This document shows positions 15,546 to 21,391 of a stretch of 64,000 nucleotides of DNA, in pieces (position 1 is the stretch's first letter; each line of letters opens with the position of its first letter). The notes below the pieces were generated by a model that was not told the origin of the DNA, made no database searches, and saw nothing but the letters and a program-made list of their open reading frames with translations. The translations under genes were made by a program, and so were the position numbers. This DNA comes from Dyadobacter luticola (GTDB lineage: Bacteria; Bacteroidota; Bacteroidia; Cytophagales; Spirosomataceae). Location of the stretch: positions 1,410,375 to 1,474,374 of the forward strand of contig NZ_VCEJ01000002.1 of NCBI RefSeq assembly GCF_005860805.1, written 5' to 3'.

Positions 15546-16931
15546 TCACCCCTTAAACATCCCCTCGTAATGTTTCGAGGGGAGCAGTATTGCGCCACTG
15601 GTCGAGTAGAACGATTGATCGGTCAGGTAAACGCCCTTTTGAGTTTTCACCCAGCTGCCGTCTGGCATCGGGAGGTAAGTCATGAGGCGGTCCCAGTTTT
15701 TGTAATATTGATGTCCGTTGGTTTCCTGCAAACCGATGGAAACGCCCGGGAAAGGCTGCAAACGGGCAGCGATGTTTTTATTCCAATCAACTAAAATCGG
15801 GTTGACAGTGAGGTCGGCGCAGAAGCAAGGGATTTTTTTCTCGTAGGCCAGCTGTGTGATTTTCATGGTCATACTCAGCGTTTTGGCGATGGCTTTTACC
15901 GCGATGGCCGAGTAGCCGAGCTCGATCCGGTGGGCGGCATCCTCAACGGTATGTGCACTTTCATCCGCTGCTACGCGCACGCCCAGATCTCCCACAAAAG
16001 CCTCGTTACTTTCTTCAAAAGGCTCTTCAATCACTGCGATCTGGTCAAATGCGCCGATCTTTTTGGCATGATCCAGAAAACGCAGCAACGTTTCCTTTTT
16101 CTCATAGCGGCCATTCATATCAAAATAATACGGAATTTTTCCACTCTGCGTGTAAGGCGTTTCGTAGTGCCCGATCGTTTTGTGCAGCGCCGTGAGGAAC
16201 GCAATGTCCTTTTCGATCATTTCCTGCTGGGTACCTGCCGCGCCTGTTTTTAATTTTAAGATAAAATAACCTTCATCCGCTGCCTGCTGGATCCGCTCCG
16301 GCGTAGTACCTACTGCAAATGAGGGGATACTCGCCACCTTCTCATGCCGGTATGACAACCCCGGCTTATAAGCCGCGGGGATCAGATCATCAAACTGCGT
16401 AATGTTGTTTTCGCCCGCATACAGCAACCACGCAGCATTGTCTACACACACCAACGCATTCAGCGCGAAGGTTTTACGTAAATCGGCGTTGCCTGTGATT
16501 TTCTTCCCATAAGCCAGCACTTCCGGCAGCATATCGTCCAGCAGCTGCACAGGATTGGTGAACGTTGTGTCTCTCAACATTTGCAAAGCCCGCTCGCTCA
16601 TGGCATACATCAACGCATTTCCCGCACTTTCGGAATGCGCCGCAAACACTTTTGAATCCGACCAAAGTACACCCTGCGTTCCCAAACCAACTTTCCGCAT
16701 ACCGGATTCCGATTCAAGCATCGCAATGCTCTGCCAGCTGTCGGTGATCGCGCTGCCTTTGAAACGGTACGGGTTCAGCGGCTCCCTTTCAAAATTCGAG
16801 TCGACATTTCTTATTTTGATCTTTTTCATAGTTGGTTCAAAAGGGTTGGGCAGTTTCGTAGCAGCACCGGCCATGGCGGCCAGGCTGGCTTGTTGCAAAA
16901 AAGTGCGGCGATCGAGGTTTGAATCCAGCAT
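15546..16931 (-). CDS. Tat-exported enolase-superfamily epimerase (mandelate racemase/MLE type)
   Basis: A 461-residue protein with an N-terminal twin-arginine signal (DRRTFLQQASLAAMAGAA). The barrel domain shows the KxK base in LKLK (near residue 228), metal ligands Asp in YYFDMNGRY, Glu in VIEEPFEE and Asp/Glu in AADES, and a later lysine in VKAIAKT. This residue set fits the muconate lactonizing/Ala-Glu epimerase branch. Databases often call such proteins L-alanine-DL-glutamate epimerase; the substrate here is not proven. It is transcribed downstream of a DapA-like aldolase, an epimerase and a transporter, suggesting a shared breakdown route. Confidence 0.8.
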   Translation of the reverse strand: MLDSNLDRRTFLQQASLAAMAGAATKLPNPFEPTMKKIKIRNVDSNFEREPLNPYRFKGSAITDSWQSIAMLESESGMRKVGLGTQGVLWSDSKVFAAHSESAGNALMYAMSERALQMLRDTTFTNPVQLLDDMLPEVLAYGKKITGNADLRKTFALNALVCVDNAAWLLYAGENNITQFDDLIPAAYKPGLSYRHEKVASIPSFAVGTTPERIQQAADEGYFILKLKTGAAGTQQEMIEKDIAFLTALHKTIGHYETPYTQSGKIPYYFDMNGRYEKKETLLRFLDHAKKIGAFDQIAVIEEPFEESNEAFVGDLGVRVAADESAHTVEDAAHRIELGYSAIAVKAIAKTLSMTMKITQLAYEKKIPCFCADLTVNPILVDWNKNIAARLQPFPGVSIGLQETNGHQYYKNWDRLMTYLPMPDGSWVKTQKGVYLTDQSFYSTSGAILLPSKHYEGMFKG

Positions 16932-17034: not shown

Positions 17035-18105
17035 TTAATTTCCCAAAAGACATCCTACGCGGTCTTTTTCAAGAAAAGCTTTTACAAATTGGTCATCAAC
17101 CAAATGCGGATAAGCCTCGATTACCCGCGTAATCTCCTCGAATTGCCCGGGCGAAAGTGTTTCCTTTGGATTCAATGTCCAGATTCCCTGCATCAGGCCC
17201 TGTCTCCGCAAAACTTCGTGCACGCCGGTAATACAGCCGTGAAACTGATGAGCCGGGTCGAAGATTGCCGCATTCATATCAGTCACTTCAGCGTTGATAC
17301 TCAGCATTTCAGAGAGGTTTTTGTCACCCTCGACACTTTCTTTGGTAAAATTGAGCAGCCGCACCGCCCGCTCCGTCCATACCGCCCAATGTCCGAGTAA
17401 ACCACCCACAAAGCGCTTTTCAACGGTTTTTTCATCAATATGAAAACGGAATGTTGTCAGCAGATCGGCGATAATGTTGTCGTCGTTGCCGGTGTAAAGC
17501 GCAATCTCGTTTTTCCTGGATGAGCTGCAAACCGCACGTACCACGTCCAGGGTTTGGTACCGGTTGAACGCCGCCACTTTGATGGCGTACACATTGGGTA
17601 TCTCTGCGAATTTTTGCCAGAAATCGTACGTGTAAACCCGCCCGCCAATCGCAGATTGCAAGTAAAAACCGAAGACGGGAATTACTTCCGAAACGGATTT
17701 AACGTGTGCAATAATCTCATCTTCTGAATGTTGCTTCCACGCAGCCATACTTACCAAGCCAAGATTATAACCATATTTCACGGCAATTTTCGCCTCTTGC
17801 AAAGCCTGGTCAGTCAGTCCGACGATACCGGCTACTTTGATAAAGGGTCGGTTGAGATTTGCTTTTTCAATTTCCTCAGCCGTAATCGCCAGCAGTTTCT
17901 CATACAAATTCACCTCCGGATCGCGGATTTCGAATTGGGTGGTATGCACGCCGATCGCAACACCTCCTGCGCCACTGGCAATATAATATCTGGTCAGCCG
18001 GCGCTGGCTGGGTTCGTCCAGTTGCAGATTTTCATTCAATGCAAGCGGGTGCGCCGGAATTGATGTGCCTTCGAGCAGCAGCTTTTTTATATCTTCTTTT
18101 AACAT
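17035..18105 (-). CDS. DapA-like dihydrodipicolinate synthase family aldolase
   Basis: A 356-residue class I aldolase-fold protein, longer than DapA (about 290). The region GGVAIGVHTTQFEIRDP corresponds to the GTTGE loop, and IKVAAFNRY near residue 192 holds the probable Schiff-base lysine. The usual YNxP tyrosine motif is altered to FYLQSAIGG near 148. It is therefore unlikely to make dihydrodipicolinate; a retro-aldol or lyase step on a keto acid is more likely (inference). It lies 11 bases after the epimerase/dehydratase gene and about 100 bases before the Tat-exported epimerase gene. Confidence 0.78.
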   Translation of the reverse strand: MLKEDIKKLLLEGTSIPAHPLALNENLQLDEPSQRRLTRYYIASGAGGVAIGVHTTQFEIRDPEVNLYEKLLAITAEEIEKANLNRPFIKVAGIVGLTDQALQEAKIAVKYGYNLGLVSMAAWKQHSEDEIIAHVKSVSEVIPVFGFYLQSAIGGRVYTYDFWQKFAEIPNVYAIKVAAFNRYQTLDVVRAVCSSSRKNEIALYTGNDDNIIADLLTTFRFHIDEKTVEKRFVGGLLGHWAVWTERAVRLLNFTKESVEGDKNLSEMLSINAEVTDMNAAIFDPAHQFHGCITGVHEVLRRQGLMQGIWTLNPKETLSPGQFEEITRVIEAYPHLVDDQFVKAFLEKDRVGCLLGN

Positions 18106-18116
18106 GTTTTTTGAAA

Positions 18117-19133
18117 TTAAAACTGACCTTTCCGCTCCTGAAAATGCGTCGGTTTGTTAATCGTTTTCCCGCCTTCCAGCAACCACCGCGCCGTGATACC
18201 GATCATTTCCTTCAATGTGGTACGCGGGTAACCGAAAAGCCGGAAAGATTCGGCAGCATTACTTAACAAGGCGGTAGGTTGCTCCTCCCCTATAAATTGG
18301 GGTTCGATCTGAAAAATCTGACCGAATTCCTTCGCCAGCCACCGCAGGGACACCGTTTCAGGGCCGGTAATGTTAAGCAATTTCGCTGGTGCTTCGCAAT
18401 GCAGCAGCGAGCGGATCGCCATTTCGTTGGCATCGCCCTGCCAGATCACATTCACGTGGCCCATATTCACATTGATCGGCTTGCTGTTCAGAACCGATTT
18501 GGCGATTTCCAGCAGCACGCCATATTTGAAATCGATCGCATAATTGAGCCTGTAAATCAGCAGCGGCGTGCCATAAACCGACGAAAAATACTGGAACATC
18601 CGCTCTCTGCCCAGGCACGACTGCCCATACTCACCTACCGGGTCCGGCCGGGTTTCCTCGGTGGCGCCGCCAGAATGTACCGGTGTGAACGGATAAACAT
18701 TGCCGGTAGAATAAACCACAATATTTGATTTCCTGAATTTCTCCGCTACCCGACCCGGCAGATACGCATTCATCGCCCAAGTGTAAGGCTCATTATTGGA
18801 AGTGCCAAACTTGGTACCGGCGAGGTACAGCACATTCTCAACTTCCGGCAAATCCTGTAATTGACTATCATCCAGAATGTTGGCTGTGATTGTTTCGATT
18901 CCGTCAGCATTCAGTTCCGCGGTAATTCCTTCTTCACTAAATCTTGAAACTGCAATTACGCGCTTGCCCAGTCCTGCGCGGTCGATCGCCTGCTTGGCCA
19001 GCCTGCAAATGCTTGGACCGATTTTCCCGCCAGCGCCGAGCACCATGATATCGCCCTCGATCCGCTTCATATCTTCGATCAGCGCGTCGGACGGTTTCAG
19101 CCATTTTTCTTCCAAAGTTTCCGATATGTCCAT
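18117..19133 (-). CDS. NAD-dependent epimerase/dehydratase family protein
   Basis: A 338-residue extended short-chain dehydrogenase. The nucleotide motif appears as MVLGAGGKIGPSICRLA (about residues 31-47; GxGGxxG), NVLYLAGTKFG replaces the usual NVIHLAG strand, and YSTGNVYPF followed by EYGQSCLGRERMF supplies Ser/Tyr near the catalytic site (YxxxCxxxE rather than YxxxK, as the lysine position is changed). That departure makes the catalytic mechanism uncertain. Its stop-start junction with the transporter gene overlaps by one base, so the two are coupled. Confidence 0.75.
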   Translation of the reverse strand: MDISETLEEKWLKPSDALIEDMKRIEGDIMVLGAGGKIGPSICRLAKQAIDRAGLGKRVIAVSRFSEEGITAELNADGIETITANILDDSQLQDLPEVENVLYLAGTKFGTSNNEPYTWAMNAYLPGRVAEKFRKSNIVVYSTGNVYPFTPVHSGGATEETRPDPVGEYGQSCLGRERMFQYFSSVYGTPLLIYRLNYAIDFKYGVLLEIAKSVLNSKPINVNMGHVNVIWQGDANEMAIRSLLHCEAPAKLLNITGPETVSLRWLAKEFGQIFQIEPQFIGEEQPTALLSNAAESFRLFGYPRTTLKEMIGITARWLLEGGKTINKPTHFQERKGQF

Positions 19134-20365
19134 TATTTGAAAAGTGGATTATTGAAGAATATTTCTTTTGAGTTGACGACGGCGAGTGAGAAAATAATGA
19201 TCAGGCCTAGCCCAGCCGCAATTTTGACGAACGTACTATTCACTTTGTCACCCATGATCTTTTTATCATTCGCCACGAGGTACATGACCGTTCCAATAAA
19301 TGGCACCACGAAAATGGTCACGCTCTGAGCAAAAACGATTAGTTCCAGGGGCAATTTCCCGAACCTTACCGCAATTGACGCACCTATCACCATCACCAAT
19401 GCTACGAGATAGCGAACCTGTTTGGACGAAAAATTGCTTCCTAAACCCAGCGCATCCCCCAGCAAAGTGCCGCCAACCGATGCATTACCGATCACCGAAG
19501 AAAATGCCGCTCCGAAAAGCCCGATCAGAAAAACGGCCGAAGCATTACTTCCGAACAAAGGTTCCAGTGCCTTGGCCATATCCGATGCCGAGTTCACCTG
19601 GATACCTTTTGGTTTGAGGATCGCGGCGGCGCAAACAATGACAATGAAACACATGACGCCAAGCAGGATAATGCCGGTGGTACTGTCGTTCTTTTCATAT
19701 TTCAGCGCCGGGTTTACCCTGATCCGCTCCTGAATGAGATAAGCCTGGTAGAGCGCGCCCACGATGGAAAAACAGGATGCCGTAAATGCGATGATCAGAC
19801 CGGTAGAGCCAGCCGGTATTTGCGGCGTGACGACACCTTTCACCATTTCAGCGGCATCGGGGCTGGCGTTGAAAAATGTGGTAATAAATGAAAAGAGCAT
19901 GATGACGATCAGAAAAATCATCGTCTTTTCGAGTACCGGATAAAAGCTTCTGAAAAAAAGCAGGCAGATGGCGAGCAGGTTGAAAAATATGATCCAGGGA
20001 ATATTGGATGTATGAAAAAGCTCTCCGGCCGCTACGCCTACACCTACTGAGTTACCTGCCTGAAATGAGGTAGCCACCAGGAAAACACCGATTCCCATCG
20101 CCACGCCAGCCCAATTCCCCCACTTTCCTCTGACCGTGGCAAGTAATGATTGCTCGGTTGCGCCGCCAATCCGCGTGGCCATCCCAGTGAAAATCGCCAT
20201 GAAGAAAATGGCCGCGACCACCAGCCAGAGCAGCGAGTAACCGTAAAGCGCGCCCATTTTTGACGTAATGGTGAGCTTACTTGGTCCGAAAACCAGTGCT
20301 GCCGTGATCATTCCCGGCCCCAGCGACCGCAGCCAGCGGAGCACGCCTGATGTAGATTTTTCCAA
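19133..20365 (-). CDS. Nramp-family transporter without the canonical metal-binding motifs
   Basis: A LeuT-fold protein with about 11 membrane helices, aligning to Nramp from GPGMITAALVFGPSKLTI onward. In helix 1 the DPGN motif is replaced by GPSK, and in helix 6 the MPH motif is replaced by VGA within FSIVGALYQAYL. Both motifs bind Mn/Fe in true Nramp proteins. Function as a metal transporter is therefore doubtful; its operon suggests uptake of the compound degraded by its neighbours (inference). The frame opens at 20470, but a promoter at 20427-20458 lies inside that extension, so TTG 20365, giving 410 residues of normal length, is preferred. Confidence 0.75.
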   Translation of the reverse strand: MEKSTSGVLRWLRSLGPGMITAALVFGPSKLTITSKMGALYGYSLLWLVVAAIFFMAIFTGMATRIGGATEQSLLATVRGKWGNWAGVAMGIGVFLVATSFQAGNSVGVGVAAGELFHTSNIPWIIFFNLLAICLLFFRSFYPVLEKTMIFLIVIMLFSFITTFFNASPDAAEMVKGVVTPQIPAGSTGLIIAFTASCFSIVGALYQAYLIQERIRVNPALKYEKNDSTTGIILLGVMCFIVIVCAAAILKPKGIQVNSASDMAKALEPLFGSNASAVFLIGLFGAAFSSVIGNASVGGTLLGDALGLGSNFSSKQVRYLVALVMVIGASIAVRFGKLPLELIVFAQSVTIFVVPFIGTVMYLVANDKKIMGDKVNSTFVKIAAGLGLIIIFSLAVVNSKEIFFNNPLFK

Positions 20366-20411
20366 AGTAAAAGTGATGGGTTTAGGATAGACAAGAATGC
20401 AATTTCGGGCG

Positions 20412-20421
20412 ACGTGCACGT
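20412..20421. promoter_or_regulatory. Perfect palindrome at the probable transcription start of the catabolic cluster
   Basis: ACGTGCACGT is a perfect ten-base palindrome, continued by ACACGT, just downstream of the -7 box of the minus-strand promoter. Its position fits an operator for a repressor. Confidence 0.35.
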
Positions 20422-20426
20422 ACACG

Positions 20427-20458
20427 TAAATATATTGTTCATTTTTCAAATCTCGCAA
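20427..20458 (-). promoter_or_regulatory. Promoter of the catabolic cluster
   Basis: On the minus strand TTG (20458-20456) is followed after 21 bases by TATATTTA (20434-20427), close to the TTTG / TAnnTTTG promoter of Bacteroidota. It lies inside the 5' extension of the transporter reading frame and so helps to reject the ATG at 20470. Confidence 0.5.
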
Positions 20459-20503
20459 TACCCATATCATTGTTGTTTAAAAATGTAAGAAAACCAGCAG
20501 ATA

Positions 20504-20542: not shown

Positions 20543-21391
20543 ATGAAAACATTCTTTCTCTCTGCATTTTTGCTGGCAGCAAGCCTCACGTCTTTTTCTC
20601 AAACCAAAGCGCCCCGCCTGATCGTCCGCGGCGATGATATGGGTTACTCGCATTCGGGGAATCTGGCTTTGATCAAATGTTCAAAAGAAGGTTTTCAAAC
20701 GTCCATCGAGATCATTGTGCCGTCGCCCTGGTTTCCGGAAGCGGTAAAAATGCTGAATGAAAACCCGCAGATTGATGTCGGGATACATTTGGCAATCACC
20801 AGTGAGTGGGATAATGTGAAGTGGCGGCCGGTTTCGGAATGTCCTAGTCTGCGCGATGAGGATGGCTATTTTTACCCGATGATCCACCCCAATAAAAACT
20901 ATCCGAAGCGGGCGATTAAAGACAATGACTGGAAAATCGCTGATGTGGAAAAGGAATTCCGGGCGCAGATTGAACTGGCGTTGAAAAAATTACCGCGCAT
21001 CAGTCACGTTTCGGCGCACATGGGCTGTACAGGTATCTCGCCGGAAGTAAAAGCTCTAACCAAAAAATTGGCGCAGGAATATAAAATCCCGATCGACGCC
21101 GAACCGGCAGTGAGCTACGCCGGCTATGACGGGCCGCACAAAACGCCGGAGCAAAAAGTGGCGAGTTTCATCAAAATGCTGGATAAGCTGGAACCCGGTA
21201 AAAGTTACCTTTTCGTAGATCATCCTGGCCTCGACGATGCAGAGTTACAGGCAATTCACCACATTGGATACGAAGACGTGGCGCAGGACCGGCAGGGCGT
21301 GACGGATCTTTTTACCAGTAAAAAAGTGAAAGACGCCATACAGAAGAAAGGTGTTGTTTTAATCACCTATAAAGACTTGGCCGGTCAATAG
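20543..21391 (+). CDS. Exported ChbG/YdjC-type carbohydrate deacetylase
   Basis: A 282-residue protein with a signal peptide (MKTFFLSAFLLAASLTSFSQ). The family motifs are RGDDMGYSHSGN (the metal-binding Asp-Asp pair near residue 33), VGIHLAITSEW (His of the metal site), and SHVSAHMG near 155 with a further His. YdjC/ChbG enzymes remove acetyl groups from small amino sugars. Here it is likely periplasmic, acting on an unidentified acetylated compound. It diverges from the 15546-20365 cluster and may share its regulation (inference). Confidence 0.82.
   Translation: MKTFFLSAFLLAASLTSFSQTKAPRLIVRGDDMGYSHSGNLALIKCSKEGFQTSIEIIVPSPWFPEAVKMLNENPQIDVGIHLAITSEWDNVKWRPVSECPSLRDEDGYFYPMIHPNKNYPKRAIKDNDWKIADVEKEFRAQIELALKKLPRISHVSAHMGCTGISPEVKALTKKLAQEYKIPIDAEPAVSYAGYDGPHKTPEQKVASFIKMLDKLEPGKSYLFVDHPGLDDAELQAIHHIGYEDVAQDRQGVTDLFTSKKVKDAIQKKGVVLITYKDLAGQ

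Follow-up and report, generated by a model that had tools for sequence, protein, structure and literature searches.

An Nramp-related transporter without the canonical metal-site side chains, linked to an SDR-like and a lyase-type gene in Dyadobacter luticola, is a probable importer of an organic solute

What does a member of the Nramp family carry when the residues that hold the metal in its canonical relatives are replaced throughout its own group? The question is raised by a gene at positions 19133..20365 (minus strand) of a window of 64,000 nucleotides from Dyadobacter luticola (contig NZ_VCEJ01000002.1, positions 1,410,375 to 1,474,374), whose product we call TRA, for Nramp-related transporter; the two enzymes encoded downstream are abbreviated SDR and DHD. 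Our results suggest that TRA probably imports a small organic solute by the alternating access of a LeuT-fold carrier. An earlier note on this DNA had proposed that a LeuT-fold carrier without metal ligands, standing in a catabolic operon, may take an organic substrate. The fold, the missing ligands, the gene linkage, the co-occurrence and the regulon of close relatives all speak for this proposal, whereas the substrate itself is something we infer.

The gene is real and its family label is clear. The longest open reading frame (ORF), from an ATG at 20470, spans 19133-20470 on the minus strand, is open and intact, and serves here for counting residues. The start at 20365 given by the earlier note, a TTG, is nevertheless the likelier one, because an operator-like site (20412..20427) falls inside the longer ORF and because an in-frame TTG-GAA recurs near this position in 17 of 24 Dyadobacter rows, the window among them. 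The end of the gene overlaps the ATG of SDR by one base. The full-length protein matches the PF01566 (Nramp) profile with 230 bits (cut-off 29.8) and the NCBIfam model "Nramp family divalent metal transporter" with 82 bits (cut-off 50), which is the database verdict that the earlier note had foreseen; TRA-type genes do go by the name of divalent metal transporters in NCBIfam and in plasmid annotations. The open frame and the conservation across 87 rows rule out a pseudogene.

The substrate site was read in a MAFFT alignment of the family (138 rows) and in the 87 rows of the clade to which TRA belongs (80 loci plus seven more, some rows sharing a genome), which we name the GPSK clade after its motif in transmembrane helix 1 (TM1). 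There, F61-G62-P63-S64-K65 (20276..20290, minus strand) replaces (I)DPGN, with Asp changed to Gly62, Gly to Ser64 and Asn to Lys65; G62, P63, S64 and K65 stand in all 87 rows, exactly as the earlier note had read the motif. In TM3, the canonical Asp and Glu (D131 and E134 of DraNramp), present in 8/8 canonical and clade B rows, give way to Q137 and N140 (20051..20062, minus strand; 87/87 rows). In TM6, the MPH region is replaced by S232-C-F-S-I-V-G-A-L-Y-Q242 (19745..19777, minus strand). Flanking residues anchor a gap-free register that sets MPH opposite S235-I236-V237, two residues away from the VGA of the earlier note; a profile-profile alignment is gapped at MPH and still places Gln242 opposite the second conserved His, in agreement with MAFFT. 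The register has thus to be corrected, but the disappearance of the motif stands, as no Met, Pro or His occupies its place in TRA in either the SIV or the VGA register. S235, V237, A239, Y241, Q242, Y244 and Q382 are also invariant in the clade, along with G62, S64, K65, Q137 and N140, and G238 is kept in 85 of the 87 rows.

These replacements can be set against what is reported for characterized transporters. DraNramp is reported to hold Mn by D56, N59, M230, two backbone carbonyls and, through water, Q378, and its D56A mutant to be devoid of transport (PMC10185341). NRMTs are defined by DxxG in TM1 and TxxA/T in TM6, and EleNRMT retains the TM1 Asp and the TM3 Glu, its Asp mutant being strongly compromised (PMC8806188). 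TRA has GxxK and S232..S235 at these places. The Asp common to Mn, Mg and Al transporters is Gly62 throughout the GPSK clade, none of its 87 rows has an acidic residue at the aligned TM1 and TM3 site positions, and the sole side chain of the Mn site that it keeps is the TM10 Gln (Q382). Chance or misalignment is ruled out by the invariance of the replacement letters, and a one-off loss in this strain by the breadth of the clade, whose members come from Dyadobacter, Larkinella, Pedobacter, Chitinophaga, Algoriphagus and others. We also weighed a sodium site of the Na2 type (AxxSS in TM8) and discarded it, because most canonical rows have the SS pair too and some rows of the clade have SA instead.

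The scaffold itself is predicted to be that of Nramp. An AlphaFold2 model of TRA, built from a 10-sequence alignment (mean predicted local distance difference test score 75.3), finds EleNRMT, DraNramp and BfraNramp entries as its 15 best PDB matches in Foldseek, with template modelling scores of 0.72-0.80 by query and 0.85-0.88 by target length (7qia 0.80/0.88; outward-open 6d91 0.78/0.87; occluded 8e60 0.77/0.87). The model is therefore one of an Nramp/LeuT fold.

The GPSK clade forms one group (support 100/99) in an unrooted tree of 74 chosen rows, for which the program warned of several long branches. Its nearest rows, from Bacteroidota, haloarchaea and Neorhizobium, carry GPGS or GPGN, and all 31 group together with the same support. 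Canonical and clade B rows make up a separate group (100/100), outside which the GPSK clade falls; the three YcsG-type rows sit on a branch of their own (100/100, length 4.27), and NRMT-like rows are also found elsewhere in the tree. TRA can hence be classed as non-canonical and Nramp-related, having PF01566 and a place outside the canonical clade, without DPGN or MPH. The phylogeny that the earlier note had suggested does set the subgroup apart from canonical Nramps; being unrooted, it demonstrates no loss of motifs. A rooted tree in a 2026 preprint describes Nramp-related proteins without DPGN/MPH as paraphyletic and outside the canonical Nramps (PMC12873925), and for this reason we prefer to say that the motifs are not there: they were probably never present in the lineage of TRA, and the word "lost" in the earlier note is best abandoned. 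The preprint calls the groups other than the NRMT-like one and G-motif 3 (MntG) entirely uncharacterised, and Cellier's work employs a similar "orphan" SLC11 outgroup (PMC10606218).

If the site does not look like one for metals, the company of the gene may tell what it serves. The next gene encodes SDR (18117..19133, minus strand; PF01370), an extended short-chain dehydrogenase/epimerase-like protein, and is followed by that of DHD (17035..18105, minus strand; PF00701), of the DHDPS/N-acetylneuraminate-lyase type. Among the 76 loci that have 2.3 kb or more of downstream sequence (four shorter loci, all with SDR, were left out), TRA is followed on the same strand by SDR, less than 400 bases from its end, and then by DHD in 71; SDR starts at most 50 bases from the end of TRA in 60 of the 72 loci with both genes. 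The association holds at the level of genomes too: of 395 Bacteroidota genomes, the same five, including that of the window, have TRA (E <= 1e-40) and DHD (E <= 1e-50), a coincidence with a chance of 1.3e-11 under the assumption, not quite true, that genomes are independent. The best PDB profile match of DHD is N-acetylneuraminate lyase (E 1e-6). K176 and Y148 are invariant in 9/9 aligned rows, and because DHD keeps Lys176, which we take to be the Schiff-base lysine, acting with Tyr148, it likely catalyses a lyase or aldolase step. In SDR the YxxxK motif reads YGQSC, where Y169 is kept and C173 replaces the catalytic Lys, both invariant in 9/9 aligned rows; because of this Cys, SDR may not be an ordinary dehydrogenase.

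The enzyme pair also exists without TRA. DHD-like proteins were found on 20 plasmid records, of which we examined 12, the other eight being two short fragments and six additional records from Streptomyces. In all 12 loci, from four further phyla, SDR is close to DHD, and in none of these stretches of 11-19 kb is there a TRA homologue (E <= 1e-8). Two loci are unannotated. The other ten have carbohydrate ABC genes (3), other ABC genes whose substrate class the annotation does not give (2), a tripartite tricarboxylate transporter (TTT; 1), MFS genes (2) or no transporter in sight (2, one of them at a record end); the TTT locus has a carbohydrate ABC permease and peptide-type ABC genes further away. 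Which importer serves the SDR-DHD pair thus seems to differ between phyla.

The wider surroundings of TRA are rich in genes related to carbohydrates. Around 86 loci, the neighbour clusters include GSDH with cytochrome c (37), SusC-type TonB receptors (29), LacI (28), SusD (24), two Gfo/Idh clusters (24 and 23), sugar-type MFS (14) and M20 hydrolases (10), although each cluster was named from one representative and some may belong to adjoining operons. The M20 hydrolases would also fit an amino-acid-like substrate, as would the serine ammonia-lyases close to two of the plasmid loci. Far relatives of TRA, examined on seven of 30 plasmid records, show similar company. For example, a Neorhizobium plasmid has LacI, a DHDPS-family gene and a TRA relative together, and in four haloarchaea Gfo/Idh/MocA, heparinase or BNR-4 genes are close to the relative. 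Two plasmid relatives from another subgroup of the tree (GPGT) have hydantoinases A and B, and in one stretch a cysteine desulfurase lies about 5 kb from the relative. A scan of ten neighbourhoods of other Nramp-related rows was uninformative on sugars for L178 and L181, which adjoin a TRAP permease and TauE, and two gave no match. In the same scan, an Nramp-related subgroup with GTGS in TM1 (L177, L180, L183) was observed beside alginate lyase, GH2, N-acetylglucosaminidase and xylose-isomerase-like genes.

Regulation in close relatives points to sugars as well. A 20-bp palindrome, TTACGGGCACGTGCCCGTAA, occurs with at most two mismatches upstream of TRA in 17 of 23 Dyadobacter loci (including L053-L071), exactly in 15, and in none of the 57 other loci, some Chitinophaga having related palindromes. 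It overlaps a TAnnTTTA element, which resembles the Bacteroidota -7 box, a placement expected of a repressor site. In 12 chosen relatives, at the same tolerance, the palindrome is present once per genome in four and twice in eight, and the reversed palindrome used as control never appears. In 8/8 genomes that have a second site (L212-L219), a Gfo/Idh/MocA gene is found some 35-200 bases downstream of it (one representative was named by Pfam), with ApbE adjoining in five and SusC/SusD close by in five. TTACGGGCACGTGCCCGTAA is likely a LacI operator, and a LacI-type regulator would probably link the TRA operon of these relatives with a gene for a sugar-dehydrogenase-like protein and, in many cases, with uptake across the outer membrane. 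The window has ACGTGTACGTGCACGT (20412..20427, minus strand), possibly a degenerate form of this putative operator, and its genome one other site with three mismatches to TTACGGGCACGTGCCCGTAA (C1:13169). The nearest LacI-family gene lies elsewhere in the genome (L233; C3:873800-893700), shares 64-67% identity with the regulators found at the operons of the relatives, and adjoins genes with export-like N-termini.

The import of an organic solute is our preferred explanation because, in all 87 rows, the Mn-site side chains are gone except the TM10 Gln, the Asp is a Gly and a Lys is added, and because the same genome has a canonical Nramp. It further rests on the linkage and co-occurrence with SDR and DHD, on the other transporters that accompany this pair, on the regulon of the relatives and on precedent: PxpT of Corynebacterium is reported to be required for growth on 5-oxoproline, with complementation from a plasmid and without its authors excluding metals, and YcsG to be likewise required for 5-oxoproline use (PMC13274462). 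We envisage that, in many loci, SusC/D of the outer membrane and dehydrogenases (GSDH, Gfo/Idh/MocA; taken here as periplasmic) would make or deliver a sugar-derived compound. TRA, as a secondary transporter of the inner membrane, would take it up from the periplasm, helices 1 and 6 giving alternating access, after which SDR and DHD, the latter as a Schiff-base lyase, would process and cleave it. The site would be lined by Lys65, Ser64, Ser232, Ser235, Gln137, Asn140, Gln242 and Gln382. Lys65 stands at the place of the metal-ligand Asn, and a carboxylate as its partner is a guess. Hence the solute is perhaps a sugar-derived anion met by Lys65, which we hold with less confidence than organic import as such. 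We put forward only as a speculation, itself rather doubtful, that the whole GPSK clade consists of importers of sugar acids or other sugar-derived anions, in which the fixed Lys replaces the cation and binds the carboxylate; the Nramp scaffold would then be a carbohydrate carrier, in many Bacteroidota controlled by a LacI-type regulator and adjoining SusC/D, and swapped for ABC, TTT or MFS importers beside this enzyme pair in other phyla.

Several observations weigh against organic import. Five of the 76 loci, all from Chitinophaga, are without the adjacent enzyme pair (in one, L116, the pair is 4 kb further), and in G227, one of the five co-occurrence genomes, a TRA homologue 30-33% identical lies on a different contig from SDR-DHD. 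TRA is patchy even among near relatives, with 28 of 59 genomes having it, that of the window included (E <= 1e-20); it is an accessory gene, of which D. fermentans JDP9 has two copies. At the position of Lys65, the sister rows have Ser (7/8) or Asn (1/8). The window's own operator-like site differs from TTACGGGCACGTGCCCGTAA at 5/20 bases, there is no LacI gene at its TRA locus, and its genome has no close orthologue of the second regulon gene (best match 38% identical), so the regulation deduced from relatives may differ here. The gene context is also compatible with metal being supplied to the catabolic pathway. We found no measured transport for any member of the GPSK clade in the literature searched. 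Finally, MumT of Acinetobacter is reported to raise cellular Mn (PMC5050338), and YcsG of Bacillus, renamed MntG, to raise Mn as well, its role in 5-oxoproline use being questioned (PMC10448178). As YcsG-type proteins are far from the GPSK clade, the reports on PxpT, YcsG and MumT, on both sides, would by analogy offer precedent and not proof.

The best surviving alternative, which we nonetheless judge unlikely, is that TRA still imports a divalent metal, held by backbone carbonyls, Ser232/Ser235, Asn140 and Gln382 in place of the usual ligands, and so provides the enzymes of the operon with a metal cofactor. PF01566 membership is in line with this, and so is the presence at some loci of MR/MLE enzymes, which need Mg; yet, of the core partners, SDR is of the NAD type and DHD a Schiff-base lyase, neither of which is known to require a metal, and cofactor supply was set aside as first choice for this reason. 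The family is certainly versatile, as EleNRMT moves Mg through a rebuilt, wider site (PMC8806188) and MumT and MntG have the Mn phenotypes just mentioned. But such a site would have to work without any acid at the aligned positions and with a Lys at the place of the ligand Asn in 87/87 rows, when without the Asp DraNramp did not transport and EleNRMT did so far less well (PMC10185341, PMC8806188). A canonical Nramp is moreover already encoded in the genome, and the SDR-DHD pair is found elsewhere with carbohydrate ABC, TTT or MFS genes. Import of a metal-organic chelate, such as a sugar acid with a divalent ion, would make family heritage and operon context both true, and reconcile the Mn phenotypes of far relatives with their organic-acid phenotypes; it has no precedent in the literature examined and no sequence feature specific to it, and seems very improbable. 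Least credible of all is that TRA exports or senses, for example as an exporter of a pathway intermediate or as a transceptor, since sequence cannot tell direction but the pair is elsewhere accompanied by importers (carbohydrate ABC with binding proteins, TTT).

Other genes of the locus and genome deserve mention. An MR/MLE enolase-superfamily protein (15546..16931, minus strand; PF13378) is an optional member of the operon, for which an ORF search found homologues at 15 of 86 loci and tblastn at 17 of 76; an NCBIfam search of this protein gave no match. Its N-terminus looks Tat-like by eye (RRTFLQ), suggesting an exported enolase-type enzyme. A role as sugar-acid dehydratase was not retained: by eye, its KxK...K pattern resembles the MLE/epimerase subgroup, and no pathway was built on it. 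A YdjC-type deacetylase gene (20543-21391) is divergent from the operon, and a homologue accompanies the operon at 2 of 20 loci (L045, L051). The genome has three PF01566 genes, namely the canonical one with DPGN/MPH (L001), TRA and a YcsG-type gene (L003; C3:656097-657059). The latter has a neighbouring ORF that is hydantoinase-B-like by eye, and its best-ranked plasmid match adjoins pxpA and pxpB. This protein, too, may carry an organic solute while being listed in databases as a metal transporter.

If TRA imports an organic solute, metal-homeostasis inventories and models of catabolic loci in these bacteria would both be wrong at the loci of the GPSK clade. It would also bear on whether the Nramp scaffold first carried organic solutes, within the APC superfamily, and turned to metals only later. 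Published work disagrees on whether the YcsG/MumT type carries Mn or 5-oxoproline, and the GPSK clade should be a cleaner test because it has no acidic residue at the aligned site positions, a separate canonical Nramp in the genome and a small core operon.

Comparison with known systems shows where TRA stands. It shares with canonical Nramp/MntH (DraNramp, ScaDMT, BfraNramp) the predicted fold and the TM10 Gln, but the side-chain ligands of TM1 and TM6 and the Asp and Glu of TM3 are all replaced. EleNRMT, a Mg transporter, is the top solved fold match and likewise has no Met and no His pair; NRMTs are described as keeping the TM1 Asp and the TM3 Glu, both gone in TRA, and the tree separates NRMT-like rows. 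The PxpT/YcsG (MntG)/MumT type is closer in its circumstances, as it is Nramp-related, has no DPGN and is encoded beside catabolic enzymes, yet YcsG-type rows occupy a far branch, have GPGFLTQ in TM1 and adjoin pxpA/pxpB (L192) or the hydantoinase-B-like ORF (L003); MumT was absent from our tree, and its assignment to the YcsG type relies on PMC10448178 and on Acinetobacter matches at 45%. Searches of the literature for Nramp in connection with carbohydrate loci or this operon, outside which most subscription journals fell, returned nothing on the GPSK clade. TRA agrees with the Nramp-related or "orphan" group as published in having PF01566, in being non-canonical and in being without DPGN, MPH and the TM3 acids of the proton path. 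That wider group is already in print, with PxpT/YcsG and 5-oxoproline; what appears to be new is the GPSK clade itself, set apart from it, in this sampling, by an invariant GPSK with a Lys at the ligand position.

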